Positions 15,198 through 40,868 of a DNA stretch of 46,054 bases are shown in pieces. The translations under genes were made by a program, and so were the position numbers. The notes below the pieces were generated by a model. It worked only from the letters and a program-made list of their open reading frames with translations. It ran no database searches and was not told the DNA's origin. Source of the stretch: Candidatus Omnitrophota bacterium (GTDB taxonomy: Bacteria; Omnitrophota; Gorgyraeia; 1-14-0-20-64-10); assembly GCA_016201735.1 (NCBI GenBank), contig JACQCH010000003.1, positions 1 to 46,054 of the forward strand, written 5' to 3'. Position 1 is the first letter of the stretch, and each line of letters begins with the position of its first letter.

Positions 15198-15205
15198 GAA
15201 AGCAG

Positions 15206-16477: not shown

Positions 16478-16484
16478 CACGCCT

Positions 16485-17486: not shown

Positions 17487-17505
17487 CAATTTTAAGCGAT
17501 TTTAG

Positions 17506-17534
17506 TTGACAGAAGTGCTTCTAGAGGTTATTTT
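17506..17534 (+). promoter_or_regulatory. Sigma-70-like promoter TTGACA-17-TATTTT
   Basis: TTGACA 17506-17511, 17-nt spacer, TATTTT 17529-17534, upstream of the ROK gene. Confidence 0.5.
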
Positions 17535-17551
17535 CAAAACGTTTAAATTAA
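17528..17551. promoter_or_regulatory. Imperfect palindrome TTATTTTCAAAACGTTTAAATTAA, candidate ROK/NagC-type operator
   Basis: 16 of 24 positions match the reverse complement by hand alignment; overlaps the putative -10. Confidence 0.4.
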
Positions 17552-17581
17552 CTGCTCTCATCAGCCCAAAGAGGAGATCCC

Positions 17582-18793
17582 ATGATTCGAGGTGCCGAGA
17601 TCGATGAAGAATATTCCCTCACTGAACGTGAACGGAAAAACGTTGCAATTCTGGAGGCGATCAAGCGTTATGGCCCGATCTCCCGCACCGATGTTTCCAA
17701 GCTGACCAAGCTCAACATCGTGACGGTCTCCAACTACATCAACAATTTCATCGAGCAGGGGATCGTCATCGAGAAGGGGTTGGACATCTCTTCCGGCGGC
17801 AGGCGTCCGACGATCGTCGTGTTGAATCCGAAGTCGGCTTATGTCGTCGGAGTGGATCTGGGGGTCTTCCAGATCACGGCGGTCCTAAGCGATCTGGAAG
17901 GAAACGTCGTCACCCGTTCAAAAACCTCCCGGCCCCGGGACACGGCCGACAACGTGGTCAAGGCATTGAGCGAGCAGATCGAGCAGGTGATCAAGTCCTC
18001 CGGCTTGGAGGCGAAGAAGATCCGGGGAATTCAGATCGGGGCCTCCGGGGTGATCGACCGGGAAGTGGGGACGATCCGCTGCACCGAGGGGGTGGCCTCC
18101 ATCTACGTGCCGATCACGACCCTGCTCTCCGAGCGGTTCAAGGTTCCGGCGAAATTGGAACACGATGTCACCACCGCCGCCTACGGGGAATGGTCCTTGG
18201 GGGCGGGAACGGATGTGGACATCATGCTGTTCATGTACTCGGGGGTCGGCTGCGGCATGATCATCAACGGCGAGATCTACCACGGCCACACCGGTACCGC
18301 CGGCGAGGTTTCCATCCGGGGAGAGGCGGCCGACGTGTCGGATCTTTGGATCGGAAACATCGCGGCCCTGAAGCCCTGGGCGGCCCACTTGGGGATTCCG
18401 GATGAAGCCCGGGAAGCGATCAAGAGCGGCGGCGTTTCCAAGATCTCGGAGCGGGTGAAGGGGAAGCTGGATCAGATCACCCTGGAGACGGTCATCGAAG
18501 CGGTCAAAGAAGGGGACCAGCTGGCGATCGAGACCGTTCAGAAGGCCGGCGAACGGCTGGGGGTTCGGATCGCCTTCCTCATCAACCTGCTCAATCCCGG
18601 CGCCGTTGTAATTGGGGGCGGAATTGAAGCGGCCGGCCCGGCTCTCATGGAAGCGGTCAAGAAGATGGTGCGCCTCTGCGCGTTCGAGGAGATGGCCAAC
18701 GCGGTCAAGATCGTCCCCGCCCGTCTTGGAGAGGATTGCGTCGCCCTCGGGGCCGCCTCCCTCGTCATTCGCGACGTCTTCGCCGGCGTGTAA
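17582..18793 (+). CDS. ROK-family transcriptional regulator (NagC/XylR-like)
   Basis: N-terminal wHTH (ISRTDVSKLTKLNIVTVSNYINNFIEQGIVIEKG) plus ROK domain (VVGVDLGVFQITAVLSDLEG, EHDVTTAAYGEW, GHTGTAGEVS). Confidence 0.85.
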   Translation: MIRGAEIDEEYSLTERERKNVAILEAIKRYGPISRTDVSKLTKLNIVTVSNYINNFIEQGIVIEKGLDISSGGRRPTIVVLNPKSAYVVGVDLGVFQITAVLSDLEGNVVTRSKTSRPRDTADNVVKALSEQIEQVIKSSGLEAKKIRGIQIGASGVIDREVGTIRCTEGVASIYVPITTLLSERFKVPAKLEHDVTTAAYGEWSLGAGTDVDIMLFMYSGVGCGMIINGEIYHGHTGTAGEVSIRGEAADVSDLWIGNIAALKPWAAHLGIPDEAREAIKSGGVSKISERVKGKLDQITLETVIEAVKEGDQLAIETVQKAGERLGVRIAFLINLLNPGAVVIGGGIEAAGPALMEAVKKMVRLCAFEEMANAVKIVPARLGEDCVALGAASLVIRDVFAGV

Positions 18794-18823
18794 GAACCGT
18801 TAAACCGATCAACCATCCCAACG

Positions 18824-23410: not shown

Positions 23411-23580
23411 AAAAATCCAAGAAGGTTTTCAATCTTCTTTCTCGATCTGAAATAAAATCCACTGCCCGGTGGATATGCACCCTGGAGCCCAAAGAGAAGA
23501 ATTACATCGAAGATTCCCTCATAAAGATTCGCGATGGACTCAAGCAGATTAACGAATTATGGAGTAGCCATGCGGTTTAA
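23407..23580 (+). CDS. 57-aa hypothetical protein
   Basis: ATGA overlap with the upstream ORF; hand translation MKKSKKVFNLLSRSEIKSTARWICTLEPKEKNYIEDSLIKIRDGLKQINELWSSHAV; overlaps the next gene start. Confidence 0.45.
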   Translation: MKKSKKVFNLLSRSEIKSTARWICTLEPKEKNYIEDSLIKIRDGLKQINELWSSHAV

Positions 23581-26500
23581 ACAGGTTTTTTATTTTCGCC
23601 GGTTCTTTTCCGTCTTAACAATCCTTTCCTTTACCTTGTCCCAAGCCTTTCCGGCTTGTGACCGTGGCAGCCAGGAACTGGCTGCAGGAAATGGTGCGGC
23701 CTCTTCTGGCCGCAGCCAGGCCCTGCGCCCAGGCATTGAAGGCCGCTCCCAATCCGGCCTCGAGGAGGCGATCAAAGAAACTGCCTCTGCGCCTTTAACC
23801 CCGGCGTCTCAATCGGTTTCATCGGAAAACCTATCTTTTAAACCCCGAGACCTCTGGATTCCTCTGGCCGTGATGGAAAATGACCTGCGAGGCCCGGTCA
23901 CCCAGTCGGTAAAGGCGCAAGAAAATGTTTTTATCGTGGAAGGGGTTTTTGACGGTAGTCGGGACCTGGCCGACGGACGGGTAGCGATATTTCCTTCCCC
24001 TCTCCTCATCGATGGATCAACCGCATCGCAGGTTTTTGACATCGTTGAGAAAGGCAAAGAGAATCCTTCCGAGATGAGTTCTTTGCAAGCAGGGATCTTT
24101 GATCAGGTAATGGACCTTGCACGCAACGAGTCCGGCGCCAGTTTAACGGAGCATCTGGCAAAAGAGGCCAGAGCGGGTCGGGACGCTTCCGCGGCTATCG
24201 CCGCTGCCGCACTCCAAGAGAGAGGATATTTTTGCGGTCACTTCGGTTGGGTCGGAACGGAGAAGCCGGATTATCAGCCGATTCAAGGTATTGAAAAATT
24301 GGAACCCGCTCATTTGAGCCCCCTCTTCGATCTCATCCAGAAGAACCGCTTGGAAGATGTCCTGCGCCAGCCGGGCGTCTACGTTGCCAAGGAAGAAGAC
24401 GTCGTGGAAAAGGATGGGGCTGTCCAAGTGCGGCTCCGTCCTATCCAACAAGAAGGTGTCGAGGGTGCACCCGGAGAATGGATTACCCTCGATTCCCAGG
24501 AGATCCCCCTTTATCAGCAATTCCAAGATAGGGAAAAAGAGATATTCGAACTGCGGCGGAGCTTGAAGTATGCGATGGATAAGAAACAGGGGATTCACGG
24601 CGCACGCCGCCGACTGGATGCAGGGCGGACGTCAGTCGCCCAGGCCCGCCGGGCCCTTCTCCTCCAAGTGACCCGCCGACTCCACGGTCCCCGAGCGGTC
24701 TTCAGAAACCATCTTTTGGAGGATTATCTGGGAGGGGACGCCGAGCTGGATCGGTTTCTGGAGATTGCTTCTGGATTCAAGCGATTTGATCAGTATCTCC
24801 GGCTGTTCAAGAATCTCAACATGCAGGGCGAGCTTCAGAGGTTCGTAGAACGGCTCAACGTGGAGATCGAGAAAGAAGAGGAGATCCTAAAAGGGATCAA
24901 AAAGGCGAAACGGATCCGTTCCGCTTCGGATCTCTCCATCATGAGGCGACGGCTGGGGCGTCTGAAGGATATCGTATCGGCGATCGAGAAGGAAACCTTT
25001 GGGATCATAAGAGATGCTCAGCAGCTTGTGAGGGATCCCAAGACCTTGAAGGAACTTCTTCCTCGGGATCTGGCGGGTTTGTCCGACACGGCGGTCCGGG
25101 AACTTTATTCCTTATCGTTGACCTTCCGTTCCACCGACCGGATGATGGAAACCCGAGGGCGGGATTCTCTGGGATTGACTGCGTCCTTTACTTTTGCCGA
25201 TGAGCAAGCGTTCCAGCAGTTTTATAAAAAGGTTCTTTCTCCCAGAGATCAGACGCAGTTCAAAGAACGGCAGCAGATCGAGGATTTGGTCAATAACGCC
25301 ATTGAGGTAAGGAAAGGGTCGTCTCCGGACGGCAAGGAGGACCCTTCCAAGCCGGTCACGGTGACCTTCGTCTATAAAACCGCGATGTTGGTGGGCCGCC
25401 TGGGAGACAACGCGGCCCGCCTGACCGAGCAGATCACCCAGGACAGGATCTTCCAGCAGATCATCCGCCAGTTGGACAGCCAAAAGATGATCCACACTCG
25501 GTGGGCTTCCGCCGGCGTCATCTCTGAAGGAAATGCCCATCCGGTGGGAAATAAAGGGATTTACACCTTGAGTCTCAACGGCCAGACTCGGAAAGTGGAA
25601 ATGGTCATGCAGATTTCCTCGGATCGGATCGCTCCGCAGTATGGCAAGAACGGAAATATCTTTGCTGACCTCAACGGAGACATCACCAACTACAACAGCT
25701 GGGACTTGGTCGCGGCCCAATTCTTTCCGAACTTAAGGCGCCAGTACGAAGAACGGTCGCTGGACTCGGGGGTCATCGAGCGGACGATCAGCGACAACAT
25801 TAAAACTGATACGAAAGTGATCCCGCTGATCATCGAAGAGTTCCTGGCCAGGGGCGATACGATGGAAGAGGCCTTCCGAAAAGCAATAGCTCGCTTTAAC
25901 GGCTCCTTCTCCATCCAGTGCGTCAGCGATCTAGAGCCTACCAAACGATTCGTCGCTCTAGGGGGAGACGGGCAGGGTCTCTACATCGGGATCTCCGAAG
26001 ATGGGCTCATCCCGGCTTCGGAGGTGCATGGTTTTATTTATCGAACCCGCCGCTTTGTCAAGATCGAGCCGGTCAAGGTCAAAGAGTGGGGGATCGAAAG
26101 GACCGTTCCGGTCTATGTGGTCATAGATAAATCCAAACCGCCCACGGTGGAGAACATCTTTCTCTACCGGGCCGACAACGGAAAGAGGATTGAGCTCACC
26201 GAGGATGATATCGCGGTTACCGAGAACACGGCCCGGGATGTGGATTTGGGAGATAACCGCTTCTTTTTCATCAAAGAAGTTTTTGAAGCCCCGGAGATGT
26301 TCGAAGCCACCATTGAAGGCCGGGTGGATGTCCAAAAGAATGTTGCTACCGCTAAGGACGAGGCGGTGGTCAATCTCTCTGAAGACGAAATTCCGGAAGA
26401 GGTTCTCCATCAGATCGCCAACGGCAAATTAAACAAGATCCGCGTCATCGCCATGGGGACAGCCAATGCTGCTGGGCTCATCATCGCCAGAAAGTGGAAG

Positions 26501-29500
26501 CGGTCCATCGAATTGGCCAACCGGTATCGCCAAGCAAACGGACTTCCACCTGTTAAAATTGATGTAACTGGAGAAGTGGCGACGGAGACAGGGATGTTCG
26601 ATGTTCCAAAAGACATGTCGGACACCCTGATTGTTGCTGTTACACAGTCCGGTGGAACCAAGGACACCAATGTCACCTTGAGGAAGGCAATGACTCAAGG
26701 GCCAGACGGACGTGGCGCAACGGTTCTTGTCATTGTTAACAAGCGGGATTCCGATGCCGTCTTTATCGCCCAGGATAGTGGGGGCGGGGTGATTTACACG
26801 GGGACCGGACGGGAACCGGAGATTGCCGTCGCTTCCACGAAGGCCTTTTACGCGCAGATCGGCGCCGGCTACACCATTGGGATGAAGATTGCCCAGGCTC
26901 TCGGTCTGCCTAAGGACGATCCGGCCTTGGTCGGCGACGCCAGAGAATTGCTGGCGACGCCTCGGAAGATGGCGGAAACGCTGAAGACCGTTCCCCGCTA
27001 TGTTCCGCTTCCGGAGGAAAATCCTGCTGAAAGGGAACGGGCGCTGGCCCATCCTCTCGTGAAGGCCGCCCGCTTCTGGCCGCTGCGAAAAGGAGAGAAG
27101 GCCTGTTTAGGGGATGGCTTCGCGTATGACTCGGCGGAGGAGGTCCGAATCAAGAATTCTGAGCTGACCTACATGGCGATTGGCCGGGACTACATGACCC
27201 ATCCGAAACATATCAATTTGAGCGCAGAGCCATGGCTGTTGATTTTGGCAGCCAACATTCGTGGAGACGATGGCAGTTACTGGAGCAAATACGTGCTTCA
27301 GGAGTTGGAGAAATTTACCGCTCATCGGGCTGCTCCCATCGTCGTGGCTACGGAAAATGAGAGGGATACCTATCTTCTAGAAAGAGGGGAGCCCAAATTT
27401 TTTGTTAAAAGGAAGCGTCCCAATGGAACAGAAATGCTGCCCCGCCCCATCGACATCATCACTGTTCCGGAAGCGCCGGAAGACTTCTCTCCCATCTATT
27501 CCGCGATGGCGGGTCACCTGTTTGCCTATCACACCGCTCTGGCGATTAACGAGTACGCGGTGCTGATGGGGAAGATTCAACAGAAAGAGTTGGAAAACTG
27601 GGAGAGACTTTCCAAACAGGAATTTAAGAATCGAGAGATCCTTGAAAATCCCAGTTTCCGTTCAGCGGTGCGCGAGGTTTTTAAACCCCTTTGGGACGAC
27701 TTGGCGGATGGCGTGCGGCTCCCGGGAGATAATATGCAGGATATGCTGGTTCAACTCCGGGACGTCTACTTTGCCTTGACCGGAAGAATGGAATTTGATT
27801 GGGAGGAGCACTTCGGCAGAGAAGCGTCTCTCTTAGAGGCATTCCAAACCTTGACGGAACAGATCCGCACAGAATTGACCCGGACGATCGATTCCATCCG
27901 CCACCAGGCGAAGTTCGTGACGGTGGGGATCGAAGCGGGCGGGGCGGTCGTTGCCAAGGAACTCAAGGATTTCGCTGCGAAGCTGGTGATCAGCCGATTT
28001 CAACCGGGCGGCCAGCGGCTGGAGCCGGAGGTCATCCAGGAAACTCTACTTCAGTACATTGCGTATAAAAAGGATAATCGGCCGCACGTGGCGGTGATCC
28101 ATCATCCCTTGGAAGACAGAACCATGTCTCATCGGATCATCATCATGAAAGATCGGGATGGAATTTCTGGAGCGGCAGCCCGTGCCGCTATGGGGAAAGG
28201 AGCCGGAATAATAGAAGAGGCGGTCCTTCAAGTTGACAAAGCCATCGTGATCATCCAAACCCTAGATAAACCTTATGCGGTCATGGAAGGTGAACCGGCT
28301 AAGGCGTCCGGCTTAGAGGAAGTCCATCAGCCGCCCCGTTTGACCGACCTGACTCTCCAGTATTTGAGCCAAGTGGAGCTTGGAATTGGCAGCGGCCCCT
28401 GGGCTGAATTCGGAAACTGGCTGGTGACCAATACCGGAGCGATGATTGGAAGACCCGGAACTCCTTTGGAGGTGGATCTCACCAATATTGACCCAACGGC
28501 TGTTTTGGAGCCCGGTGTCCGGATTGTGGGCAAGGATGCTGTCGTTGAGGCGGAAGCGCGGATTGGCCGAGGTTCCTATCTGGAGAACGCCAAGGTACGT
28601 GCTCGAGCCCAGGTCGGAGCCGGCTCGGTTCTGATCTATAAGCCTTCCCCGCCAGACGAAATCGAACAGTGGCGGTTGTCTCCGAAGAGCCCCTACCTTG
28701 CTCAAGAACAGCCGACCGAGGTTGGAGAGGATTCTCGCCTCTCACCCGGAACCTATCTTTTGAACTTTAGCGTTGGGGCCCGCACCGTCTGGGAGAGGTT
28801 TAAGACTTATCCCAACATCGGTCAGAATGGAAGATTAGGCGCTGACTGCCGCTGCACCACCGCCAAATTGGTTCTTTCGGACATTCCGGACGGCTCCGTC
28901 GTCGGAAACTTCGAAGGGCCGTTTGAAGAGGAAAGAGTAACCGGCCCCATTGAGGTAAGCAATTTTGTGGGGCGTCCGGGTGAAAGACTTGGTCGGGCGG
29001 GACGCTCTCGGAATTATTACGTGGAGTACGTTGAAGGATTCTCGTTGCCGCCGATGGTTGTGGATCATGCAGGTCCTGAAGTCCACGATCGGACTTATCG
29101 CGAGCTGGGATTCATGTCTTCTCGGAAAATTTTTGGAAACCATGCGATCGCCCTGGAGTTTTCCGGGAGCCTCCAACCTGAACAGACCCGTCTTGAGAAG
29201 ATTACAGGTAAAGAGGTTTCAGCACACGGGATCGTGGCCTTTGGTTTTGGGGGAATCATCGGGGGCACCTCGAAGCTCATCGGAGTGACGGATTTGTGGA
29301 ATCGCGATGACATCCAGACGGCCGAAGATGTTCTGCGCCGGTTTGACCGGACTTACCTGGGACACTTTGCTGTGGTTGCTCCCCGGGGATTCGTCTATGA
29401 GGATGCGCATCACAGATCATGGAGAGGTACCGGCGAGGCTTGGGGCCGGGTCGGAAATTTCTCTCTCCGAGGAGCCCTGACCGCCCGGCAGGAGGTTCCT

Positions 29501-32500
29501 GCTTGGGTCTTGGACCACGCGATAGATGTAGTCCTGACCCAGATGGCGGAGGAATTCCTGGATTTGCAGAAACGGGATTCATGGAACGATCCACAAGTCA
29601 GGGAGCAGTTCAATGGGTTTATCCAGGCCGCCATCCGTTCGGAGATCGTGGAACTGCGGATTGATCGGGAGAAGAATCAGCAGGAGTTTGATAATTTGCG
29701 TAAGCGTCCGGACAGTGAGGAGATTCGGCAAAGGCGTGAGGAGATCAGCACGCGGCTTGGGATCATTGACAGCGGGATCATCCGGCTGGAGGAGCATCTT
29801 AACTCTCGGGCTTGGGTTGGGGAATGGAGAGTTCGCCCCGAGGAGGGACAGCCGGCCTTCGGCTCCTGGTGGAAAGAGAATGGCCGATGGGTCCATCATG
29901 GCGAAAAGGATGGGAGATACATCGGATATCCGGACCTGCAGCACACGATCGAAGATCTGGCGGCCGCCCAGCCAGATGAGGAACACCCGCAGCAGCCCTG
30001 GTATCCGATGATGACCGATGATGATTCGGAGGCCATTCTTGATCTATTCCAAGAGCCGAAGCAGGGTTCTGTAGCCAAGGATGCCGTGAGGGGAGAAGGG
30101 GCTTCGGTGCATCCTTCAGCGGTGATCGGTTCAGGGGCCGTGATTGAAAGCGGCGCCGTGGTCGGACCCGGGGTCCACATCGCTGAAGGAGCAAGGATAG
30201 AGTCTGGGGCTCAACTTGCCTACAGCTCAGTGGGCAGAGGTGCGAGAGTAGGCTCAAAGGCCAGAGCTTATGGCGTTCTGCTGCTGAACCGCAATGTCTT
30301 GGAGCCAGAATCCCACACTCGCCTTAGCATCGTGGGATCTCAGGGTGAAAAGGATTTCAGTAAGGTTGGCTCTAAGTCCGAGGTCAATCTCTCCAAGATT
30401 CAGGATGGTTCAAAAATCGGAGAAGAAAACCTGGTGATCGGCAGCATGATTGTCCAAGGTTCTAACTTGGGGGATCGGAACAAGGCCATCTACGGCCGGC
30501 TGGAAGATGTCCAAGCCGGGAACAACAACACGTTGAACAGCCTCATGCGGCATGTCCGGTGGGGCAACAATATCCGGAATGACCATCTCGCCACTTGGAT
30601 CGAAAACGAGATGGTTAACCCGGTCCTCATCCGAGTACCCGGGAAGAAACCAGTTCGACTGCACCTACCCGTTACCCATGGTGCCTACGCCACAGTTCAG
30701 GGCAGCCAGGAAAGACCAGTGGAGGTATTAGGATCATTCCTGGCTGGCCTGACGATTCTAGAACAGGGAGCTCGTCTGGACCGAGCTTTCGTAAAGAAAC
30801 GCGTGAGCTCGGAGGAAAGATTGTCGCCCTATACCTACGGTTTTGACGCGGGACAGGCCGCCAAAATCTTTGGAGGGGCTCTCCAGCGTCCCGGCCCCGC
30901 TTTTCTTTTCCGCTTCGGATTAAGCTACCCATGGAAAGGAACCCTTCCAGAGGACCGCTGGGCCATCGGATACCTGATTGAGCAGGGAGCCATCCAAACC
31001 ATTGAACGGATGACGGAACAACTCTCTGTTGTTAAGCCTCTTCGTGCCGATAGGGCCGACGCTGTGCGGAAACTGGTGGAGCTTCTGACTCAAAGGGATT
31101 TTCCGCAGGATGGGCCGACTCCGGCTCGACTCCGTTATGAGTTGGTTGATTCTCAAGGGAAGGCCATTCGCGCCCTCTACGAGGAGATGCAGGAGGAAAA
31201 AGAACATCCTTCTACACCCCCCGCGTCCTTTTTGCAGCTTAGCCGTCTTCAGCTTCTCGGGGGACTGTACTTGGCCATGGGGGCGCTCGACGGCCGATAC
31301 CGCCTTCGGCTGGATTCAGAAGGTAAGACATTGGTTTTCACAGAGGGAGTCTGGAATTATGATTCAGGAAATGGAAAATACAGATGGAAGGGGAATCTGA
31401 TTCCCGCGGGCGCGAGTGCCGAGCCCCTGCCGGCTGCGCCTTCCAAACACCGTAAGCTACGCCAGATTGTGATTCAACTGACAGAGGAATTTCACAAGAA
31501 TGGGAGGATCCGTTTCGAGACGGAACAATTTAAGAACCGCTCTCTCGTTGCAATTGCCGGACCCAAGAGCCATCTGCTGCGCCTCTTGGACGCTTTAATG
31601 ATTCCTCTCGGGCAAAGGGTTTCCACTCACGGTTTCCGCTCAACAGATCATGTTGGGGTCTCCTTTGTGGTAGTCAGCGGGGTTCTGAGTGATTCAGACC
31701 GCTTTGCAATCCAGGAATTGATCGATCGAATACTCCCAGGTTCTTTTGTGAATTTGTACGAGGGCACCACCTTAACCCCTGAAGAGGTGGATGGGCTCTT
31801 TGGAGTCTATAGGGATTTCCAGGAACGCAAGCAGGCAATTGTTCAGCCAAGCACCGATCCTTATTCTCCCGAGAAATCTTCAGTTCTTCTGGCGGTTCCT
31901 GCGGATGATGCCAGGTTTGAGGGGGTTTCACAGATAATTTCAGAGGTGTTTGGCCAGTGGGGTGTTCCGGTGTCGACCCCTATTGAAAAACGGTATCGCC
32001 CAACGCCCGATTCTAAAGAGGCGCGACTCCTCTACTATACAGTTAAGATGTCGCCGGCAAACCCACAGGTAGACGCAGCTGTGCATCAGATTGAGGCAGG
32101 TCTGCGTGACTTAGAGAAGTTAGCGGGGCTTGAGGAAAGGGCGGGACATAAGGAGATGGTCCGTCAGATTCAGGAATTTACCAGCACCCATTCCGGCGCG
32201 GAGGTTTCCTTCTCCGGTGGAATTTCTCCCCGGACAGGGCAGAGGGTTGGTCCCCAGGTGCTTAGCGGCGCGGACCTGACGCGTTGGAAAATCGATGATC
32301 TGGTTTCCGCTGCTGAAACCGTTTCTCCTGATGGGAAAATGGCGCTTCGGTTTGGAGGGGCGAACGGGACCAAGATCCAAGTTCTGCCGAGTACCGACGC
32401 TGGGATGGAGGAGGTAGCGGCGAACGGTTCCGCAAGACCGGTGGATGCGGAGGTGTTGTTGAGGGACAAGGTGAGACTGGAGTCCGCATCGTCTGCCGTT

Positions 32501-32911
32501 TCCTGGGTGGGCGCCATTGCAGGGCCGCATGAGAGCGGCCTGGCCTATGGGGTTGCTTTGAGTGCCGTGAAGACTCCTGACAGACAGCAGTCCTTGCCGG
32601 TGGCTTTCGTCGTGCTCAATGAGAAAGAAGCGGATTTGGTGAGGAAACTCGCCCCCTCCGGCACGATCTTTCTTGTCGGAAGCCCGGAATATCCAACGGT
32701 TCAGATCGCGGTCCAGAAAGCCGAGGAGTGGCTCGTTCAAATAATGGAGGTGAAGGTTCCTGAAGAGTTGAAACTCGGCACCGCCGGTCAACCGGTCTCC
32801 TCGTTGATCCAGAACCTCCTCCGGGATATTTTCGGAATCGAGGTGACTCCGGAATCGCTGGAGATGTGGCGGGGCTTTATCCGAGACGCGACGCTGGCTT
32901 TCCAGGCATAA
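23570..32911 (+). CDS. Giant exported multidomain protein 1: GlmS-like (GATase II + SIS) and left-handed beta-helix modules
   Basis: ORF 23534..32911; likely start ATG23570 (MRFKQVFYFRRFFSVLTILSFTLSQAFPAC). Internal GlmS-type motifs and hexapeptide repeats. Confidence 0.85.
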   Translation: MRFKQVFYFRRFFSVLTILSFTLSQAFPACDRGSQELAAGNGAASSGRSQALRPGIEGRSQSGLEEAIKETASAPLTPASQSVSSENLSFKPRDLWIPLAVMENDLRGPVTQSVKAQENVFIVEGVFDGSRDLADGRVAIFPSPLLIDGSTASQVFDIVEKGKENPSEMSSLQAGIFDQVMDLARNESGASLTEHLAKEARAGRDASAAIAAAALQERGYFCGHFGWVGTEKPDYQPIQGIEKLEPAHLSPLFDLIQKNRLEDVLRQPGVYVAKEEDVVEKDGAVQVRLRPIQQEGVEGAPGEWITLDSQEIPLYQQFQDREKEIFELRRSLKYAMDKKQGIHGARRRLDAGRTSVAQARRALLLQVTRRLHGPRAVFRNHLLEDYLGGDAELDRFLEIASGFKRFDQYLRLFKNLNMQGELQRFVERLNVEIEKEEEILKGIKKAKRIRSASDLSIMRRRLGRLKDIVSAIEKETFGIIRDAQQLVRDPKTLKELLPRDLAGLSDTAVRELYSLSLTFRSTDRMMETRGRDSLGLTASFTFADEQAFQQFYKKVLSPRDQTQFKERQQIEDLVNNAIEVRKGSSPDGKEDPSKPVTVTFVYKTAMLVGRLGDNAARLTEQITQDRIFQQIIRQLDSQKMIHTRWASAGVISEGNAHPVGNKGIYTLSLNGQTRKVEMVMQISSDRIAPQYGKNGNIFADLNGDITNYNSWDLVAAQFFPNLRRQYEERSLDSGVIERTISDNIKTDTKVIPLIIEEFLARGDTMEEAFRKAIARFNGSFSIQCVSDLEPTKRFVALGGDGQGLYIGISEDGLIPASEVHGFIYRTRRFVKIEPVKVKEWGIERTVPVYVVIDKSKPPTVENIFLYRADNGKRIELTEDDIAVTENTARDVDLGDNRFFFIKEVFEAPEMFEATIEGRVDVQKNVATAKDEAVVNLSEDEIPEEVLHQIANGKLNKIRVIAMGTANAAGLIIARKWKRSIELANRYRQANGLPPVKIDVTGEVATETGMFDVPKDMSDTLIVAVTQSGGTKDTNVTLRKAMTQGPDGRGATVLVIVNKRDSDAVFIAQDSGGGVIYTGTGREPEIAVASTKAFYAQIGAGYTIGMKIAQALGLPKDDPALVGDARELLATPRKMAETLKTVPRYVPLPEENPAERERALAHPLVKAARFWPLRKGEKACLGDGFAYDSAEEVRIKNSELTYMAIGRDYMTHPKHINLSAEPWLLILAANIRGDDGSYWSKYVLQELEKFTAHRAAPIVVATENERDTYLLERGEPKFFVKRKRPNGTEMLPRPIDIITVPEAPEDFSPIYSAMAGHLFAYHTALAINEYAVLMGKIQQKELENWERLSKQEFKNREILENPSFRSAVREVFKPLWDDLADGVRLPGDNMQDMLVQLRDVYFALTGRMEFDWEEHFGREASLLEAFQTLTEQIRTELTRTIDSIRHQAKFVTVGIEAGGAVVAKELKDFAAKLVISRFQPGGQRLEPEVIQETLLQYIAYKKDNRPHVAVIHHPLEDRTMSHRIIIMKDRDGISGAAARAAMGKGAGIIEEAVLQVDKAIVIIQTLDKPYAVMEGEPAKASGLEEVHQPPRLTDLTLQYLSQVELGIGSGPWAEFGNWLVTNTGAMIGRPGTPLEVDLTNIDPTAVLEPGVRIVGKDAVVEAEARIGRGSYLENAKVRARAQVGAGSVLIYKPSPPDEIEQWRLSPKSPYLAQEQPTEVGEDSRLSPGTYLLNFSVGARTVWERFKTYPNIGQNGRLGADCRCTTAKLVLSDIPDGSVVGNFEGPFEEERVTGPIEVSNFVGRPGERLGRAGRSRNYYVEYVEGFSLPPMVVDHAGPEVHDRTYRELGFMSSRKIFGNHAIALEFSGSLQPEQTRLEKITGKEVSAHGIVAFGFGGIIGGTSKLIGVTDLWNRDDIQTAEDVLRRFDRTYLGHFAVVAPRGFVYEDAHHRSWRGTGEAWGRVGNFSLRGALTARQEVPAWVLDHAIDVVLTQMAEEFLDLQKRDSWNDPQVREQFNGFIQAAIRSEIVELRIDREKNQQEFDNLRKRPDSEEIRQRREEISTRLGIIDSGIIRLEEHLNSRAWVGEWRVRPEEGQPAFGSWWKENGRWVHHGEKDGRYIGYPDLQHTIEDLAAAQPDEEHPQQPWYPMMTDDDSEAILDLFQEPKQGSVAKDAVRGEGASVHPSAVIGSGAVIESGAVVGPGVHIAEGARIESGAQLAYSSVGRGARVGSKARAYGVLLLNRNVLEPESHTRLSIVGSQGEKDFSKVGSKSEVNLSKIQDGSKIGEENLVIGSMIVQGSNLGDRNKAIYGRLEDVQAGNNNTLNSLMRHVRWGNNIRNDHLATWIENEMVNPVLIRVPGKKPVRLHLPVTHGAYATVQGSQERPVEVLGSFLAGLTILEQGARLDRAFVKKRVSSEERLSPYTYGFDAGQAAKIFGGALQRPGPAFLFRFGLSYPWKGTLPEDRWAIGYLIEQGAIQTIERMTEQLSVVKPLRADRADAVRKLVELLTQRDFPQDGPTPARLRYELVDSQGKAIRALYEEMQEEKEHPSTPPASFLQLSRLQLLGGLYLAMGALDGRYRLRLDSEGKTLVFTEGVWNYDSGNGKYRWKGNLIPAGASAEPLPAAPSKHRKLRQIVIQLTEEFHKNGRIRFETEQFKNRSLVAIAGPKSHLLRLLDALMIPLGQRVSTHGFRSTDHVGVSFVVVSGVLSDSDRFAIQELIDRILPGSFVNLYEGTTLTPEEVDGLFGVYRDFQERKQAIVQPSTDPYSPEKSSVLLAVPADDARFEGVSQIISEVFGQWGVPVSTPIEKRYRPTPDSKEARLLYYTVKMSPANPQVDAAVHQIEAGLRDLEKLAGLEERAGHKEMVRQIQEFTSTHSGAEVSFSGGISPRTGQRVGPQVLSGADLTRWKIDDLVSAAETVSPDGKMALRFGGANGTKIQVLPSTDAGMEEVAANGSARPVDAEVLLRDKVRLESASSAVSWVGAIAGPHESGLAYGVALSAVKTPDRQQSLPVAFVVLNEKEADLVRKLAPSGTIFLVGSPEYPTVQIAVQKAEEWLVQIMEVKVPEELKLGTAGQPVSSLIQNLLRDIFGIEVTPESLEMWRGFIRDATLAFQA
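24215..27570 (+). other. GlmS-like region: split GATase II then two SIS domains (approximate)
   Basis: CGHFGWVG (Cys codon 24233-24235), HTRWASAGVISEGNAHPVGNKG (~25490), VAVTQSGGTKDTNVTLRKA, EIAVASTKAFYAQIGAGY. Confidence 0.75.
28490..28640 (+). other. Left-handed beta-helix segment 1
   Basis: AVLEPGVRIVGKDAVVEAEARIGRGSYLENAKVRARAQVGAGSVL. Confidence 0.6.
30085..30540 (+). other. Left-handed beta-helix segment 2
   Basis: VHPSAVIGSGAVIESGAVVGPGVHIAEGARIESGAQLAYSSVGRGARVGSKARAYG... Confidence 0.75.
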
Positions 32912-32948
32912 ATCAGAGGATTTTCTTTGTAATACCAATGACATTTTC

Positions 32949-35900
32949 ATGAAACGGATTTATCAGCGGCAATCCATTCAGCGCCTAAGCGCCTGGGTTT
33001 TGATCCAGGCGCTTGTTGTTTCTCCGATTGTTCCCTCTTTTGCATTCGCTGAGCAAACAGACACCCTGAAAGTGGAGGCGGCCTTCGAAGGGACCGCCAG
33101 GCCCGGATTGGGAAACCGCCTGCTCACTCCCACCCAGTCTCCCGACGAGGATAAATTAACCGCCGGGCTGGAGGAACTTCCGGACTCGGCGAATCCGCTG
33201 TCGGAGGCGTTTGCCCCTGAACGGTACGTGATTTCTTCTCCTATGATTCCACCCCCTCAGGGAGAGGCGGTTTTGCCGATGGAGGTTGTTACTCCAGCCC
33301 AGGTGCGCCAACTCGTCGCATCGGGTAAACGGGTGGTTCTGCGGACCAGACTGGAGCGGGTCGGAGAGAGGTTGTGGGATAAACAAGCGGATCAGCAGGA
33401 ACTCCAATACCTTTACAGGATTGTTTACGATATCGCTGAAGGAGGGACTTCCTTAACGCCGCAGGAGATCACCCAGGTTATTGAGCTGTTGAATCATCCG
33501 AGTCAGGCAATCGCCGCCGCAGCGCGGGATGTAATCGTGAAGGCCCGGGTCCATGGATTGCCGGAAACAGTCCGCGGGTTAGCGCGAGGGTATCAACAAA
33601 GGCAGACGCGCATTCCGCCGGGGCCCTACGCCGATCACTATTTCAAGGACGCGATGACGGCCCGGCTGGATTTTACTCATCGGATGGAACTGGGCTCTCC
33701 GGAAACTCCCATCTTTGCCGGAGAGATGACCGAACAGAGGATGCATGAAATCCATGAACGGTTGAAGCGCTGGGTGGATCCAGAAAAATCACTGCTGTCC
33801 CAGCTGACCGGATCAGGACAGCGGATGGCCGCTCCCATTGGATTGGTGGAGGCCGGCCTCAGAGAGGAAGGGTTCCCAGCGCAGGAGATGATGGTGGACA
33901 TCGGGTCCCAGCCCCACGACTTGGTGAAGGTGCTCTTCGGTCTGGTAGCGAAGCGGTTCGTCGAGAATATGCCGAAGTGGCGGGAGGAATTTGGCAGGAA
34001 CGACAAGGAAAAGAAGATGCCCAGTCAATGGAACATCGCCATCGGGATGGATCCCCGCAGCACGGGCCCCGCCATCTTCCAAGTGGCCGCCCGGGTTTTC
34101 CAGAAGATGGGGGTCGGGGTGAAGTTCATCGGAATCACCAGCGCTCCCGAAGCGGCGGCTCGAGCGCTGTTGTCCGATCCCGGGGAAAACCTTTTGGCCT
34201 CCTATGAGATCACGCCGAGCCACATCCCGCAGGGATTCCAAGGAACCAAGCTGATGCTCTGGACAGGGCAGATTCTTCCCTGGGCCCGGGCGGAGGAGTT
34301 TAATAAGCAGATCCGTTCGGCGGTCCAAGATTTCAACGAGGTTCGGCAGGTGATGGAGTGGCTCCAAGACCCGGCGCTGAATGGCCCGGTCGATCAGATT
34401 CTTCAACGGATGCCTCAGGAGTACGCCGATTCCAAGCGCAGATACCACCGTTACCTGGAACAGCTCTTCGTGGGGTCCTCCAAAACCGGCCAAGAGGTGG
34501 AGGATCGCGTTGCCCAATTATCTGAGGAGCTTAATCGTCTTGGCATCACCGTCGTGATCGACGCCAACGGCGGGGCTAGGATCACGGACCTGCCCTTCTA
34601 TGATCGGCTCTTCGGCGGTTATATCGTCATCGGGGCCAATGCCGCGGAATTCGCGCACTCTCTCCCACCCGGGGAAATCTCCTCCAGAAATCTGATCGAA
34701 TTTGCCGAGGGAGTTGCCCCCGCTTTTGATCAAGACAGGATCTCCCTGATCCTAGTCAACCCGGATCCGGACGGAGACCGCAAAGGGATCGTTTACCGGG
34801 CCCCAAGCGGAGAATTTCTCTATCTGGACCCGCAGGCAGGATACCTGTTGGATGTTTTAAACCACGTGTTGTCGGCTGAAGAAAATAAGGTTTCGGGGAT
34901 TGGAGTGGTGGCCAATGAGGCGACGACGATCGTCGCCAAGATCCTGGCGGACCGGCTGGGATTTAAGTTTCTCATCACGGAGACCGGAGAGGCCAACGTT
35001 GTCCAAGGGATGAACCGGTTGATCCGGGAGCTGCAGGAACAGCATCCGGGGGATGTTTCCGTGATGGGAGGAGAAGGGTCCGCCGCGGCTACCATTTCGG
35101 GCGACGTTCAAGTCCGAGACATGGTCCAGGGGATTGTCTCGATGGTGAACTTCGCCCGAAATCCAAACCGGGTCAAACGGCTGATCGATCTGCTCGTGGA
35201 GGAGGAACAGGAAAAGAAACGGCTCCTGGAGAAGGTGGAGAGGGAATGGTATCAGCCGGGACAGATCCAGTACCTGGTTTATCACATTGTCCATGAGATC
35301 CTGCCACCGATGCGGAACACCGATCCCGGATACGATACGGAAGTCCTTCACGGGGTGGGGATCCAAGACCAGAAGCCATTTAAGGATACCGCCGATCGCC
35401 TGTTGGCTCCGGAGGGAGAGTGGGTCAAACGGTTTAGAGAGGAGACGGCAGATGTGCTGCAAGTTCCTCTCGACAGGATCCGAATCTCAGAGCCGATCAA
35501 TAGCATTGAGGATTACCAAATCCCAGTGGCCGGGAAACGGACGCTTCCCGATAAGCGCACGATCCATGACGGCGGTTACGAGATCCAGGCCTTTTACCGG
35601 GAACCCTCCGGGAAGGAGCATTACCTTTACAAGCTGGAGTTCCGGCGTTCCAAAACGCAGATCGGAGACACCCGCCGGATGGTTTTTGCCACGGTGACAT
35701 TTCTGCAGAGGGCCGAGGCGGAATTATTGCTCGATCGCCTGTACGAGCGGATTTATTCCCTCTGGCTGGCTTTCTTGAACGATCTGGAGGCCGAAGAGTT
35801 GATCGGTCATTTAAAAGGAGATTTTGGTCCGGTGCAGCCGTCCCTGGTTCAGAGCCTTACCGGATTGCTGGACCATCTGCTTTCCAACACTTGGCAGGCC

Positions 35901-38900
35901 CGGAAAGGCAGGGTTGAGCAACTGACAGATCCAGCAAAGTCGACCTACTCTAAGGTGGATGTCGGGAACATCAAGGAGCAGGATGCCGCCGTGGAAGGGG
36001 CGATGGCCCGCCTCGCGGCACTCTTGAATGAGATGGATCAGCCCATGAAGGAACTTCACACCCTCGCTGCTGAAATGAGGGAGAACAATCAAACCAGGGT
36101 GACGGAGGATCAGCAGAGTCGCCTGATTGCGGCCCGCCAATTTTTGGAAAAATCACCCCAGTTCTCTGTGCCTCCAATATCGTCCAAGAACCGCAATGAT
36201 TTGGCAAATACCATGGCACAGGATTTAGTCTCCAAAATCTTCCGATGGAAGATGAACCGTCTGCTCGGAGGATGGGATTTCTCCTTAACCCAAGACGTTT
36301 TGGCGCGAATCGACCGTCTTGGACAAATCATGGATGATTTGCATGACTTTGCCTTGAGGAAGGCCGCTGCGGAGAATCCGCGACAGGGAGTGGCCTTCTC
36401 CAACTTAGTGAATGCGAAAATCATCCTTTCTAAGGAGGTTGATTTCACCCAAGCAGCCGCGGGGATGGAGGAGCAGTTTAAGCCATTGGGAGAGGCGGTT
36501 CCGTTGGATCAGGTGCCGGTTTTTCCGTCGAATGCCCGGCCGGATTTCGGATCGGCTCCTTTTGTCTTTATTTCCCTGATGGCGGGGCAGGCGATTCGAT
36601 GGCAGGAAAGCATTGAGGAGGCCGGCCGCCAGGAAGAGTTCGCGGCCCGCACGGATCCAAGGACGGGGCAGGCGACTGAAATTCTTTCCAAAGGGTTAGT
36701 CCCCTTGAAGAATGTTCCTGGGTTTCCGGCCGGAACGGAACTGCCGGTGGGGTGGCTGCCCGTTTCCGCGTCTTTGGCGCTGGGAGGGATGGTGATCACC
36801 GTCGTCGGCCATCAGAAGGATCTGGTGATGGACCGGTTCACCCAATTGGATGCGCAGAAAAAGGTCTCTTACGTGGAGCAGACAAACCGGGATGGGACCG
36901 GAGGAGCGGTCTGGCGCGCTTTGGCGGCCGGCAATCTCCAGGGTTTGGCGGACAAACCGGTCATCATCGCTTCTGGAGACCAGCCCTTGCTGGACGCCAA
37001 CGTCTTTAAGGATATTCTACGGGCCCTTGAGAAAACGGATCTGGTGGTGGGAACTTCCGTGGTGAAGGATCCGAAGGACAAGGGCCGGATCGTGCGAAGC
37101 CGGAAGAACGGTTTGATCTTGGAGATACTTGAGCAGAAAGAGATCAGTGATGCCATTACCAAGGGGAAGCCGTTTCCTCAAAAGTATCACGATGCCGGCT
37201 ACGAAAGTTGGCAGGAGCTGGATGGGATTCATGAAACGAACACCGGAGTCTATGGGGTTCGAGTGAGTCTCATGCGGCAGTTCCTGTCCGGGATCCTGAA
37301 CAAAAACGCCCAGAACCAGTATTACGCCACCGACATGGTCGCGGAGGCCTTGAAGAAGGGGAAGATCGTGGCCGGTATCGATGTCCCCGCTTGGAAGATG
37401 CCGGATGTGACCCGGATCGGCGACCTGGAGGTTGTCGTCAATACGCTGAGGGATCGGGCGGAAGAGTTAAAATTCACCGCCGGGCTGGAGGAGGGAAAGA
37501 ACTGGACGGCTACGGAATGGAAATTGGCCTTGGAACAGGCGGATCAAATTCTTCGGACTTTCCCTCCTGACCTTACTCTCTCCCGGGGAATGTCTGTTCT
37601 CGTGGTGCTGAAGAACCGATACGGATCGGATTCGGAGAAGCTTAAGAAAGAGGTTGACCGACGGCTCAATCTGCTGGGGAAGTTTACCAGCCAGTTTGGA
37701 GACCGGGACGAACCGGTTCAGTTTATCGTCGTCCCCGCACGGGTTGACCTGATGGGAAACCATTGGGACTATAATGGAGGACCGCAGTTGGTCTCTACTC
37801 TGGATCGGGACTCGCTGGCTTTGGTGCGGGCTCGTTCGGATTCCGAGGTTCATATCACAAGTACATTGTTCCCATCGGAACCTGTCGTTTTTGATCCCAG
37901 GAAGAAGTTGGGTGGCCTCAATGGAGGTCTTCCGAACAGAAAAAAGCCGCTTCGGAAGGAAGATTGGGCCGATTATGCGATGGCAGCTTGCGCCTATTGG
38001 TTGAATGAATGGTTGAAGGCGGATTCAAGTGTGAAATGGAATGGTTTCGAGGGAATCTTTGATACCTCGGCTCCTCTCGGGATGGGGCTGGCGACCTCTT
38101 CCAGCTTCCTGACTGCCGCCGCGATCGCCTTTCATGAGCTAAACGGTAAAGAATGGGAGTCGGATCGGCGGAGCTTCGCTGCAGGGTGCGGCCGTGCGGA
38201 ATGGCTTCGAGGGACCCGTGGGGGCTGGTCGGATCATCTGGCGGCTTTGATGGGAAAAAAGGGACATCTGATAGTGGCTTATCCCGATGAAGAACCCCAA
38301 TATTTCAAATTACCTGCGGGTTGGAATTTTGTAATCATCAGCAGTGGTGTCAGCAGGAGGATGGCTGGGACGGCCTTGCCGTGGTTTAACCAGCGTTCAG
38401 CCGAAACCAATCTGTTTGGGCGGGTGTTGTTCGGTCAGCTTTTAAAAGAGGAATTGGGAAAGATTTCCAAAGAGAAAGCGGAGCAGATTCAAAAGGAGTG
38501 GTCTCTTTGGGAGCTGATTGATTTCGGGATGAAGAACGGTCTCGATGAGGAGAAGTTGAGTGGGATGGTCGCAGAACTACCTGATTCGCTGACCGAAAGA
38601 GTCGACGGCACGCGTTATTCTGCTCTGTTTCGTCAGGTCGAACAGAATTATCCAGGGCTTCGGAACAAAGTGGCGCGTTCTACCTATTACGTTCGGAATC
38701 GTGTCTTGTACATGGTCCGGAATTATGTTCGAATGAAGAGGATCTCCTCTCTTTTGGAGAAAGAGAGTTTCGATGATTTTGGAGAGTTGATGGCCCGAGA
38801 ACTGAAAGATCTGATCGATCTTTATCGGGTTTTGGATTACCCCGCAATTCAGGAGTTTCTGACCCCGATTCTGAGCCTTGTGGATGTGGATGGAAGAGTC

Positions 38901-40868
38901 AATTGGACGGGAGGGGGATTTGGAGGTGCCGCCGTGGCCTTGCTTTCAAAGGGGTGCTCGTTGGATGATTTCCGAGACCAGATGAAGGAGTTAGACTATT
39001 TCAAGAGAAAGACGAAACTGCGCCAAGCGCTGCTGGACGGCAGGGCCCTCTTTGTTGTCCAGCCGACCCCGGGAGCGGAGGTGGAAAAGCCCTGGCGGTT
39101 TGAGAAGAACGATTCGGAGGCGACCAGTGGTCTAGAGGAGTGGGAGAGACGGATTGAGGATTACTACCAGGATGCAACGGTTGCGGTATTGGGTGGCCGA
39201 GGTTTTGTAGGTGGGCGCTACTTGGATCGCTTGCTTGATCGATATGGTCCGATGGTCGGGAGGGTCAAGGCGGTCACTACCCAGGACCCCGATCGACTCC
39301 GAGAGCAGATAAGCGCCTTGCCCGGGGCGAGAAAGCTGGAGCCGATTCAAGGAGATCACCTTGTGCTTGGAGATGTTCGGAAATTGATCCAAGGAGCCAA
39401 GATTATCATCGATACCGCAGGATTGGCATGGCAACATCTCCCAGGCGGCCGGTCCACCTCCCTTGAAGATGAGCTGCTCCAGAACAGTTTGAGTGCGGCA
39501 CTGATCGGGTACGCTCTGGAACCAGGCCAGCGGCTCCTTTGGACTTCCAGTAGCGCCAGCGATTATATGTTTGCTCGTTTGACGAAACCCGAACAGTACC
39601 AACTATGGAAAGAAATCGACCGGAGGGCTAGAGCTTACGTTGAATGGATTCGATCCTTAGGCAATACAGTTCCTGCGCGGGAGCAGCTCCTTGCCTTTAT
39701 TGCGGATGATCTGAATTCGCATCCGCCGCAGAGCTTTTTAGATGGACCCGAGAGTTCTGTCCAAAAAACCGTTGTTTATGCGCGAGCCTTTAGCTACCCC
39801 TATTCTAAGCTGCTGGGGCAGCGCATTCTGGAAATCATAGGACAGGGAGGTAAGAAAGATATTCGGGTGCTCAAGATTTCCGATGTGTATGGGCCGGGAC
39901 AGGGGTTAGGCCCAATGGTTTGGAACCCCAGGCATAAGCCGAACCCTCAAGCAGCGCGGCGGCCGCAATGGTTCCTGGCTGTTTACGAGGCGATTCGGGA
40001 AGGTAGATACAGGCCTTGGATGAGAAAGCAACCGGAGGGGAAAGGACCCGAGGGGGGGTTCCGTAAAGTGAGCGGTCAGATACAGCAAGAGATTCTTGAC
40101 GACTATGCGGCTCCGACCCATATCGATGATGTGGTAGAGATGTTGTACAGGGCATCGGCTATTGAATTACCCACCCAACCTGAACCCCAGGTGGTGTTGT
40201 CCGTCAGTGCTCCCTGGATTCCCAACGTGGAGATGGCAAAGCAAATTTCCAATGTGGTTGGTGTAAAGGTTCTTGGTAAAGAGATAGAGGTTGTTCCTGG
40301 AAGACAGGTTTTGCGAGATAAGCCCCCTTCAGCAAGCGAAGATTTAGCGTTTTTAGGAATGCAGGGACGCTTGGTACCGTTTCAAGAGGGAATTGCTCGA
40401 CAGCTTGCATGGTGGAGACAAACTCGATCCTTTGCCGGGCTGGAAGAAAAAATCCAGTTGGCGCCGGGGGCGGCGTTGAAGCGGGTGATCTTTGTGGGGC
40501 CGGAGGTCGCGACTGGGGAACTGTTCAGGGGACTGGCTCGATTTCGACCCGCCGGTGGTGAAAAACTTGGGTGGGTGGTATTCGCCCGGGATGCGGCTCA
40601 CAAACAGGAGATTGAAGCCGGGTTGGAAGAGGCCGGGCTTGAAGCCCTGGAGCCGGTCGTCGATGTCAGCGCTTCCCCATACAACGGGAATCCTCACGCG
40701 GCCATCGCGGATTTTCAATTGAAATATTGGGGTAGAGGAAATGAGATCCATGTCCTGCTGACTCTCTTCAATCTGGCGGGGCTGGGACCTTTTCTCAAGA
40801 TCGAAGACGTTTCTTTCCGCTCTTGGCTGGAGCGGCTCGATCTCCAGCTGGAAGCCTACTACCAGTAA
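32949..40868 (+). CDS. Giant exported multidomain protein 2: phosphohexomutase, GlmU-like NTase, GHMP kinase and SDR epimerase modules
   Basis: Signal peptide MKRIYQRQSIQRLSAWVLIQALVVSPIVPSFAFAEQ; catalytic-family motifs listed in the subregions. Confidence 0.88.
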   Translation: MKRIYQRQSIQRLSAWVLIQALVVSPIVPSFAFAEQTDTLKVEAAFEGTARPGLGNRLLTPTQSPDEDKLTAGLEELPDSANPLSEAFAPERYVISSPMIPPPQGEAVLPMEVVTPAQVRQLVASGKRVVLRTRLERVGERLWDKQADQQELQYLYRIVYDIAEGGTSLTPQEITQVIELLNHPSQAIAAAARDVIVKARVHGLPETVRGLARGYQQRQTRIPPGPYADHYFKDAMTARLDFTHRMELGSPETPIFAGEMTEQRMHEIHERLKRWVDPEKSLLSQLTGSGQRMAAPIGLVEAGLREEGFPAQEMMVDIGSQPHDLVKVLFGLVAKRFVENMPKWREEFGRNDKEKKMPSQWNIAIGMDPRSTGPAIFQVAARVFQKMGVGVKFIGITSAPEAAARALLSDPGENLLASYEITPSHIPQGFQGTKLMLWTGQILPWARAEEFNKQIRSAVQDFNEVRQVMEWLQDPALNGPVDQILQRMPQEYADSKRRYHRYLEQLFVGSSKTGQEVEDRVAQLSEELNRLGITVVIDANGGARITDLPFYDRLFGGYIVIGANAAEFAHSLPPGEISSRNLIEFAEGVAPAFDQDRISLILVNPDPDGDRKGIVYRAPSGEFLYLDPQAGYLLDVLNHVLSAEENKVSGIGVVANEATTIVAKILADRLGFKFLITETGEANVVQGMNRLIRELQEQHPGDVSVMGGEGSAAATISGDVQVRDMVQGIVSMVNFARNPNRVKRLIDLLVEEEQEKKRLLEKVEREWYQPGQIQYLVYHIVHEILPPMRNTDPGYDTEVLHGVGIQDQKPFKDTADRLLAPEGEWVKRFREETADVLQVPLDRIRISEPINSIEDYQIPVAGKRTLPDKRTIHDGGYEIQAFYREPSGKEHYLYKLEFRRSKTQIGDTRRMVFATVTFLQRAEAELLLDRLYERIYSLWLAFLNDLEAEELIGHLKGDFGPVQPSLVQSLTGLLDHLLSNTWQARKGRVEQLTDPAKSTYSKVDVGNIKEQDAAVEGAMARLAALLNEMDQPMKELHTLAAEMRENNQTRVTEDQQSRLIAARQFLEKSPQFSVPPISSKNRNDLANTMAQDLVSKIFRWKMNRLLGGWDFSLTQDVLARIDRLGQIMDDLHDFALRKAAAENPRQGVAFSNLVNAKIILSKEVDFTQAAAGMEEQFKPLGEAVPLDQVPVFPSNARPDFGSAPFVFISLMAGQAIRWQESIEEAGRQEEFAARTDPRTGQATEILSKGLVPLKNVPGFPAGTELPVGWLPVSASLALGGMVITVVGHQKDLVMDRFTQLDAQKKVSYVEQTNRDGTGGAVWRALAAGNLQGLADKPVIIASGDQPLLDANVFKDILRALEKTDLVVGTSVVKDPKDKGRIVRSRKNGLILEILEQKEISDAITKGKPFPQKYHDAGYESWQELDGIHETNTGVYGVRVSLMRQFLSGILNKNAQNQYYATDMVAEALKKGKIVAGIDVPAWKMPDVTRIGDLEVVVNTLRDRAEELKFTAGLEEGKNWTATEWKLALEQADQILRTFPPDLTLSRGMSVLVVLKNRYGSDSEKLKKEVDRRLNLLGKFTSQFGDRDEPVQFIVVPARVDLMGNHWDYNGGPQLVSTLDRDSLALVRARSDSEVHITSTLFPSEPVVFDPRKKLGGLNGGLPNRKKPLRKEDWADYAMAACAYWLNEWLKADSSVKWNGFEGIFDTSAPLGMGLATSSSFLTAAAIAFHELNGKEWESDRRSFAAGCGRAEWLRGTRGGWSDHLAALMGKKGHLIVAYPDEEPQYFKLPAGWNFVIISSGVSRRMAGTALPWFNQRSAETNLFGRVLFGQLLKEELGKISKEKAEQIQKEWSLWELIDFGMKNGLDEEKLSGMVAELPDSLTERVDGTRYSALFRQVEQNYPGLRNKVARSTYYVRNRVLYMVRNYVRMKRISSLLEKESFDDFGELMARELKDLIDLYRVLDYPAIQEFLTPILSLVDVDGRVNWTGGGFGGAAVALLSKGCSLDDFRDQMKELDYFKRKTKLRQALLDGRALFVVQPTPGAEVEKPWRFEKNDSEATSGLEEWERRIEDYYQDATVAVLGGRGFVGGRYLDRLLDRYGPMVGRVKAVTTQDPDRLREQISALPGARKLEPIQGDHLVLGDVRKLIQGAKIIIDTAGLAWQHLPGGRSTSLEDELLQNSLSAALIGYALEPGQRLLWTSSSASDYMFARLTKPEQYQLWKEIDRRARAYVEWIRSLGNTVPAREQLLAFIADDLNSHPPQSFLDGPESSVQKTVVYARAFSYPYSKLLGQRILEIIGQGGKKDIRVLKISDVYGPGQGLGPMVWNPRHKPNPQAARRPQWFLAVYEAIREGRYRPWMRKQPEGKGPEGGFRKVSGQIQQEILDDYAAPTHIDDVVEMLYRASAIELPTQPEPQVVLSVSAPWIPNVEMAKQISNVVGVKVLGKEIEVVPGRQVLRDKPPSASEDLAFLGMQGRLVPFQEGIARQLAWWRQTRSFAGLEEKIQLAPGAALKRVIFVGPEVATGELFRGLARFRPAGGEKLGWVVFARDAAHKQEIEAGLEEAGLEALEPVVDVSASPYNGNPHAAIADFQLKYWGRGNEIHVLLTLFNLAGLGPFLKIEDVSFRSWLERLDLQLEAYYQ
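34000..35900 (+). other. Phosphoglucomutase/phosphomannomutase (GlmM-like) module
   Basis: EITPSHIPQGFQGTKLM (Ser loop, Ser codon 34218), VNPDPDGDRKG (metal loop), VMGGEGSAAATISGD (sugar loop). Confidence 0.75.
36525..37475 (+). other. GlmU-like nucleotidyltransferase module
   Basis: NRDGTGGAVWRAL, IIASGDQPLLD, ETNTGVYGVRVSLM, NAQNQYYATDMVAEALKKGKIVAG. Confidence 0.75.
37720..39080 (+). other. GHMP (galactokinase-like) kinase module
   Basis: VPARVDLMGNHWDYNGG, SAPLGMGLATSSSFLTAAA, GTRGGWSDHLAALMG, WTGGGFGGAAVALL. Confidence 0.8.
39165..40330 (+). other. NAD-dependent epimerase/dehydratase (extended SDR) module
   Basis: VAVLGGRGFVGGRYL nucleotide-binding loop; YPYSKLLGQRIL (YxxxK); VLKISDVYGPGQG. 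Confidence 0.75.

Follow-up and report, generated by a model that had tools for sequence, protein, structure and literature searches.

What does a five-residue peptide do when it recurs at the borders between unrelated enzyme modules of giant bacterial proteins? The question is raised by a 46,054-nucleotide stretch of a Candidatus Omnitrophota genome (assembly GCA_016201735.1, contig JACQCH010000003.1; the whole stretch is called the window), in which the motif [AS]G[LM]EE is repeated along two giant genes. Each is one uninterrupted open reading frame (ORF) on the forward strand, giant 1 at 23534-32911 (3125 aa) and giant 2 at 32949-40868 (2639 aa). The genome, here designated G000, measures 1.81 Mb at 95% completeness, and the window is its contig 17. 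Other G-numbers denote the genomes of relatives, C-numbers contigs, and L-numbers sampled stretches.

The arrangement is clearest in giant 2, where, as the original prediction had described, a motif stands between each pair of adjacent parts. The order, in residues, is signal peptide, motif at 72, phosphohexomutase (107-1165), motif at 1171, GlmU-type uridyltransferase (1268-1478), motif at 1511, GHMP kinase (1579-2042), motif at 2060, SDR (from 2078), motif at 2496 and a C-terminal domain. The corresponding forward-strand copies are AGLEE at 33162-33176 (TAGLEE from 33159) between the signal peptide and the mutase block, AGMEE at 36459-36473 before the uridyltransferase, AGLEE at 37479-37493 (from 37476 with the preceding residue) before the kinase, SGLEE at 39126-39140 (from 39123) between kinase and SDR, where a homology block shared with G009 begins, and AGLEE at 40434-40448 (from 40431), which opens a domain restricted to C-termini. 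Giant 1, also on the forward strand, has SGLEE at 23753-23767 after its signal peptide, in the context ALRPGIEGRSQSGLEE (similar in G008 and G004), and SGLEE at 28307-28321 between its GlmS-like and beta-helix blocks. AGMEE at 32399-32413 opens its C-terminal domain, which is homologous to a protein on contig C58 from that protein's own motif onward. The remaining copy, AGLEE at 32123-32137, was placed by motif scan and sequence context; it lies in EKLAGLEERAGHKE without the usual flanks and may be incidental. These nine copies had all been listed beforehand, and all are in frame. A tenth, AGLEE at 40617-40631 on the same strand, had not; since it sits within a helix of the giant 2 C-terminal domain and is missing from several orthologs, it is probably not punctuation.

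Such a density is far from what composition predicts. Shuffles yield a mean of 0.031 copies in giant 1 and 0.020 in giant 2, the other reading frames of the window contain no [AS]G[LM]EE, and no pentapeptides recur more often in the giant pair than AGLEE and SGLEE. Across G000, a degenerate nucleotide pattern encoding the motif gives 88 matches, against 6 for the reversed pattern, and the stretches that cover these matches hold 105 protein-level copies in 31 ORFs, the longest of 5634 aa. Within 28 ORFs of at least 300 aa (40,448 aa in total), AGLEE occurs 60 times (0.2 expected), AGMEE 33 times and SGLEE 8 times; AGVEE is absent and AGLED occurs once. In a single-substitution scan of this genome, alternatives to Gly2 and Glu4 are at chance level. 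AGLEE is the top pentapeptide of the motif ORFs in G000, G001 and G002 alike. The consensus around the motif in G000 reads P-P-A-A-G-[L/M]-E-E, and over all genomes sampled the ten residues that precede the motif are enriched in Pro (1.8-fold), Ser, Ala and Thr and depleted in Cys, Met and Tyr.

The motif is also placed non-randomly with respect to homology. In 52 proteins, 62 of 149 distinct homology-block ends fall within 15 residues of a motif, whereas 1000 random placements average 11 and reach at most 21. When the motif is masked, which removes its own influence on where alignments end, the figure is 104 of 364 block ends in 100 proteins (26 expected, maximum 40). The blocks of giant 2 that recur in other genera (107-1181, 2059-2493 and 2493-2633) have ends that coincide with motifs. 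Several Pfam domains are likewise bracketed by motifs: WD40 at 564-903 (motifs at 559 and 911), PP2C at 271-490 (240 and 545), HAD at 1442-1626 (1419 and 1669) and AKR at 608-797 (559 and 845), and a Pfam TAT-signal match lies immediately downstream of a motif. An old orthologous junction (position 3329 on C13 of G000, 1905 in G001, 1827 in G004) has kept the motif as AAGLEESNP, AAGLEEIAP and ASGLEENP. In predicted structures, which were built for five sequences, the motif opens a low-confidence stretch; the model of a giant 2 junction (850-1540) is poor overall (pLDDT 50), with confidence falling right at the motif. The original prediction had held that the motif punctuates module boundaries and had named random placement and lack of enrichment as the outcomes that would tell against it. 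Both tests were run, neither outcome was found, and the block-end and Pfam results strongly support the claim. Two hallmarks of polyproteins are present: one ORF appears, as read from its sequence, to hold several independent units, and a short conserved sequence stands at the unit borders.

Carriers of the motif have a recognizable anatomy. By a crude hydrophobicity rule for signal peptides, 65 of 81 five-prime-complete ORFs with at least two motifs begin with a hydrophobic leader and, after it, [A..]LR, compared with 28 of 692 motif-less ORFs; on inspection, most of the remaining 16 seem to bear leaders as well. These order members were sampled as stretches of metagenome-assembled genomes (MAGs) picked for containing motif matches, and their per-protein densities are not genome averages. 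The first motif commonly lies a few dozen residues past the leader; that of giant 1, ALRPGIEGRSQ[S/G]GLEE, is common to three genera. Many proteins have 150-200 aa between the last motif and the stop, while in two G001 proteins the motif is just 12-18 residues before it. Since copies occur right after the leader and this close to two C-termini, the motif is not merely an inter-domain spacer. The C-terminal domain of giant 2 (family A, 40434-40865, forward strand; residues 2496-2639) has an alpha/beta model (pLDDT 82) with no significant match in the PDB; its family was found in 14 proteins of the order, C-terminal in all of them, and when 180-residue pieces from C-termini served as queries, 191 of 197 homologous matches were themselves at C-termini. 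As separate observations, the last residue is Ala in 61 of 88 proteins with at least two motifs (AA, SA, QA or FA endings), far more commonly than in motif-less ORFs, and several of the leaders in L042, L040, L038, L050 and L053 contain an insert like GVYPEPSRGALR or PSVRAELVEAR, resembling the translation of a short palindromic DNA repeat.

Within Omnitrophota, the motif is restricted to a single order. Of ten further genomes from that order, nine give 13-126 pattern matches (control 1-7), the 48 class genomes from outside the order give 0-9 each, and a 286-genome sample of the phylum contains no further genome above 9. The tenth relative, G003 (Omnitrophica CG11_big_fil_rev_8_21_14_0_20_64_10, of the same order), looked empty under the standard pattern; its orthologous junctions spell [AS]GLE[A/S/T], and across the genome [AS]GLE[AS] occurs 72 times, against 9 for the control, with few GLEE. 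The same variant in G027, outside the order (25 against 4), was treated as chance, the matches being scattered at one or two per contig. Nothing comparable emerged when the large, signal-peptide-led proteins of four class members from outside this order were screened de novo for repeated pentapeptides. In a search with the mutase block, the named relatives were Candidatus Omnitrophota MAGs. Independently of this, large ORFs with FBPase homology and no motif, several with signal-peptide-like starts, were noted in other orders of the class, in G026 (C41), G016 (C1), G030 (C204) and G043 (C57), within L181-L185; by sequence reading, that of G026 begins with a triosephosphate-isomerase-like stretch. 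The sole class V FBPase match of G000 (C13, 34475-35728) forms one module within a motif ORF of 2583 aa.

The next question is whether peptide or nucleic acid is conserved. Within ORFs of at least 300 aa, 81 of 83 motif matches are in frame 0 on the coding strand, by which a DNA repeat or mobile element was ruled out. The motif codons of G000-G002 are unusually uniform and spell GGAGG; in G004, the Glu4 codon is GAG 20 times and GAA 26 times (43% GAG against a background of 39%), with the peptide kept. As G004 stays near its background and the matches are overwhelmingly in frame, the conserved object is the peptide, and copying in the course of module shuffling may account for the uniform codons of some genomes. 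The peptide is also spelled differently from genome to genome; most of the searches concerned take Gly2 and Glu4 as given, and only the substitution scan of G000 tests the two independently. At position 3, the ratio of L to M is 75/33 in G000, 71/1 in G001 and 92/10 in G002; G004 adds AGQEE and AGAEE without codon bias at Glu4, G001 adds TGLEE, and G003 swaps the last Glu for Ala, Ser or Thr. Shifts of this genome-wide kind point to a trans-acting factor, since coevolution with such a recogniser predicts that many unlinked sites in one genome will change alike. Biased copying of junctions would also produce uniform peptides, but with uniform codons, which G004 lacks.

The explanation we favor, at about even chances judged from these sequence patterns, is that the carriers are polyproteins and the motif the processing site of a proposed endoprotease. 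Each carrier would open with a signal-peptide-like leader whose end lies near xLR, continue with a series of modules that evolve independently and, in most cases, finish in a C-terminal domain. The sequence [A/S/T]-G-[L/M/Q/A]-E-[E/A/S] at the borders would be recognized by a dedicated endoprotease of the bacteria's own, and its cuts would separate leader, modules and C-terminal domain from one another. The enrichment, border placement, order specificity, protein-level constraint, leader association and dialects are observed; the trans-acting recogniser is what we infer from them. Several modules, mostly in the middle of giants (G000 C16 and C30, G003 C42, G004 C13), start with a Tat-like RR and hydrophobic segment about 9-15 aa past a motif, as if they had an N-terminus of their own. 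The linker, processing site and fusion scar had all been offered as readings by the original prediction; processing is now preferred, and the plain linker and the scar are weakened by the post-leader and near-C-terminal copies and by the dialects. Several points weigh against cleavage. The Tat-like enrichment is modest, with 8 near motifs against 3.8 expected. Large signal-peptide-led proteins of 1,400-2,500 aa that lack the motif occur in related orders, and fusion can therefore do without it. In G000-G002, GAG makes up 85-89% of Glu4 codons, against a background of 57-68%, and identical 21-mers occur, a uniformity that could reflect DNA copying. No protease has been found: the own-genome carriers scanned contain no Pfam peptidase domain, and a genome-wide protease search was not made.

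Much of the same evidence would be expected if the motif were never cut. As a short linear binding motif, each junction could dock to a scaffold, shell or export factor, the giant being an assembled multi-enzyme particle. The specificity, dialect and flank data fit this too, as do the leader and C-terminal domains shared among carriers and the presence of the enzymes of one apparent pathway together. No partner is known, however, and docking peptides usually occur once per protein, whereas here up to nine or more copies lie between unrelated modules; we regard docking as a serious but rather unlikely alternative. A comparable, low probability is given to the motif being a junction scar, in which the short conserved DNA GCCGCCGGG[AC]TGGAGGAG would be a site of module-exchange recombination and the peptide its translation, tolerated as a linker. 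Modules have indeed been exchanged across proteins and genera, with the motif marking where the exchanged pieces end, and the codon uniformity and identical 21-mers of G000-G002 also speak for it. Yet G004 keeps the peptide with background codons, AGVEE (GTG), one base away, never appears in G000, and the change of dialect is genome-wide. The retention of the motif in three genera at the C13 3329 junction, a partial case of old-junction conservation, tells against a scar as well.

Two further ideas have little left to support them. The GGAGG retained in most motifs of G000-G002 could act as a Shine-Dalgarno-like pause or an internal start between modules, but G004 drops this constraint and no consistent start codon follows the motif; together with the absence of the GTG variant in G000, the G004 codons were taken to rule this mechanism out, and its probability is very small. 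Smaller still, to the point of being negligible, is that of an ordinary helix-start sequence favored by composition, for which the 40617 copy, sitting in a helix, speaks; against it, the motif is about 300-fold above expectation, order-restricted and border-placed.

Returning to processing as the preferred reading, the enzymes concerned pose a question of their own. Giant 1 (23534-32911, forward strand) consists of a signal-peptide-like N-terminus, a GlmS-like block, a left-handed beta-helix block with hexapeptide repeats and a C-terminal domain. It resembles GlmS across much of the isomerase part, and CGHFGWVG at aa 234, candidate for the N-terminal Cys of the GlmS glutaminase, does not adjoin a motif. 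In giant 2 (32949-40868, forward strand), which runs from signal peptide and phosphohexomutase through GlmU-type uridyltransferase, GHMP sugar kinase and SDR to the C-terminal domain, the mutase block (33267-36441, forward strand) is 48-58% conserved in other genera and has an intact DPDGDR loop, and the GHMP domain is of the galactokinase/GalNAc-kinase type. Together the giants appear to encode a UDP-GlcNAc-type (GlmS/GlmM/GlmU-type) pathway, an observation that also covered G003, G004, G005, G006 and G008. A canonical glmS above the curated cut-off was found in none of 11 genomes of the order and in all 14 control genomes, a comparison subject to incomplete genomes and salvage routes; some weaker GlmS-like matches lie within ORFs of 1,400-3,800 aa. 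Sugar-nucleotide reactions of the GlmS and GlmU type are normally cytosolic. The predicted signal-peptide leader on the amino-sugar giants, in an order where no canonical glmS was found, would be at odds with that chemistry. More tentatively, and we think improbably, the order may have moved a sizeable set of enzymes, including a UDP-GlcNAc route without canonical glmS, into signal-peptide-led polyproteins cut at a motif that coevolves with its protease, perhaps for delivery to a separate compartment. Upstream in the window, 6207-21241 holds an amino-sugar/oligosaccharide-like cluster that includes a NagB-like isomerase, an amidohydrolase, parts of an ABC transporter, a ROK protein, a GH94 phosphorylase and CBM30 proteins.

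Among known systems, LPXTG, PEP-CTERM and the T9SS C-terminal domain are single C-terminal signals, each combined with a signal peptide and handled by a dedicated enzyme or machine. The likeness is in a short or terminal recognized signal accompanied by a signal peptide; rather than occurring once near the C-terminus, the motif described here is internal and repeated. Another parallel is found in the plastid polyproteins of euglenids and dinoflagellates, which have a conserved decapeptide linker and, in E. gracilis, are processed upon import (PMC6242988). These share one targeting presequence, several units and a short conserved linker between units, but are eukaryotic and consist mostly of tandem copies of one protein joined by ten residues. 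The Omnitrophota carriers are bacterial, known from sequence alone, and number dozens of genes per genome, their five-residue motif separating different, unrelated enzymes and not repeated units of the same protein. In the bacterium Mycoplasma hyopneumoniae, proteome-wide endoproteolysis takes place at S/T-X-F-X-D/E, with sites mapped by mass spectrometry and a protease that is not confirmed (PMC4772806). There too, one short dominant motif serves many proteins; the Omnitrophota motif, which is recognized from sequence, differs in marking the module borders of giant multi-enzyme ORFs. Giant multi-domain proteins have been described in the same phylum, such as one of 39,678 aa in Velamenicoccus archaeovorus, and the available part of that report presents them as mostly poorly conserved with few annotated domains and mentions neither a punctuation motif nor processing (PMC10066038). 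No description of the motif was found in the open-licence literature, and of the titles listed for AGLEE as a whole word none was relevant.

If the motif is a processing site, the poor annotation of Omnitrophota giant ORFs would be partly explained, and such proteins would need to be split at the motif before they are annotated. The dialects offer a genetic handle for finding the recogniser, and the presence of cytosolic sugar-nucleotide enzymes apparently behind signal peptides prompts the question of how these cells are organized. Under the same condition, these bacteria would be making a large share of their big proteins as polyproteins, something otherwise seen chiefly in viruses and certain plastids.

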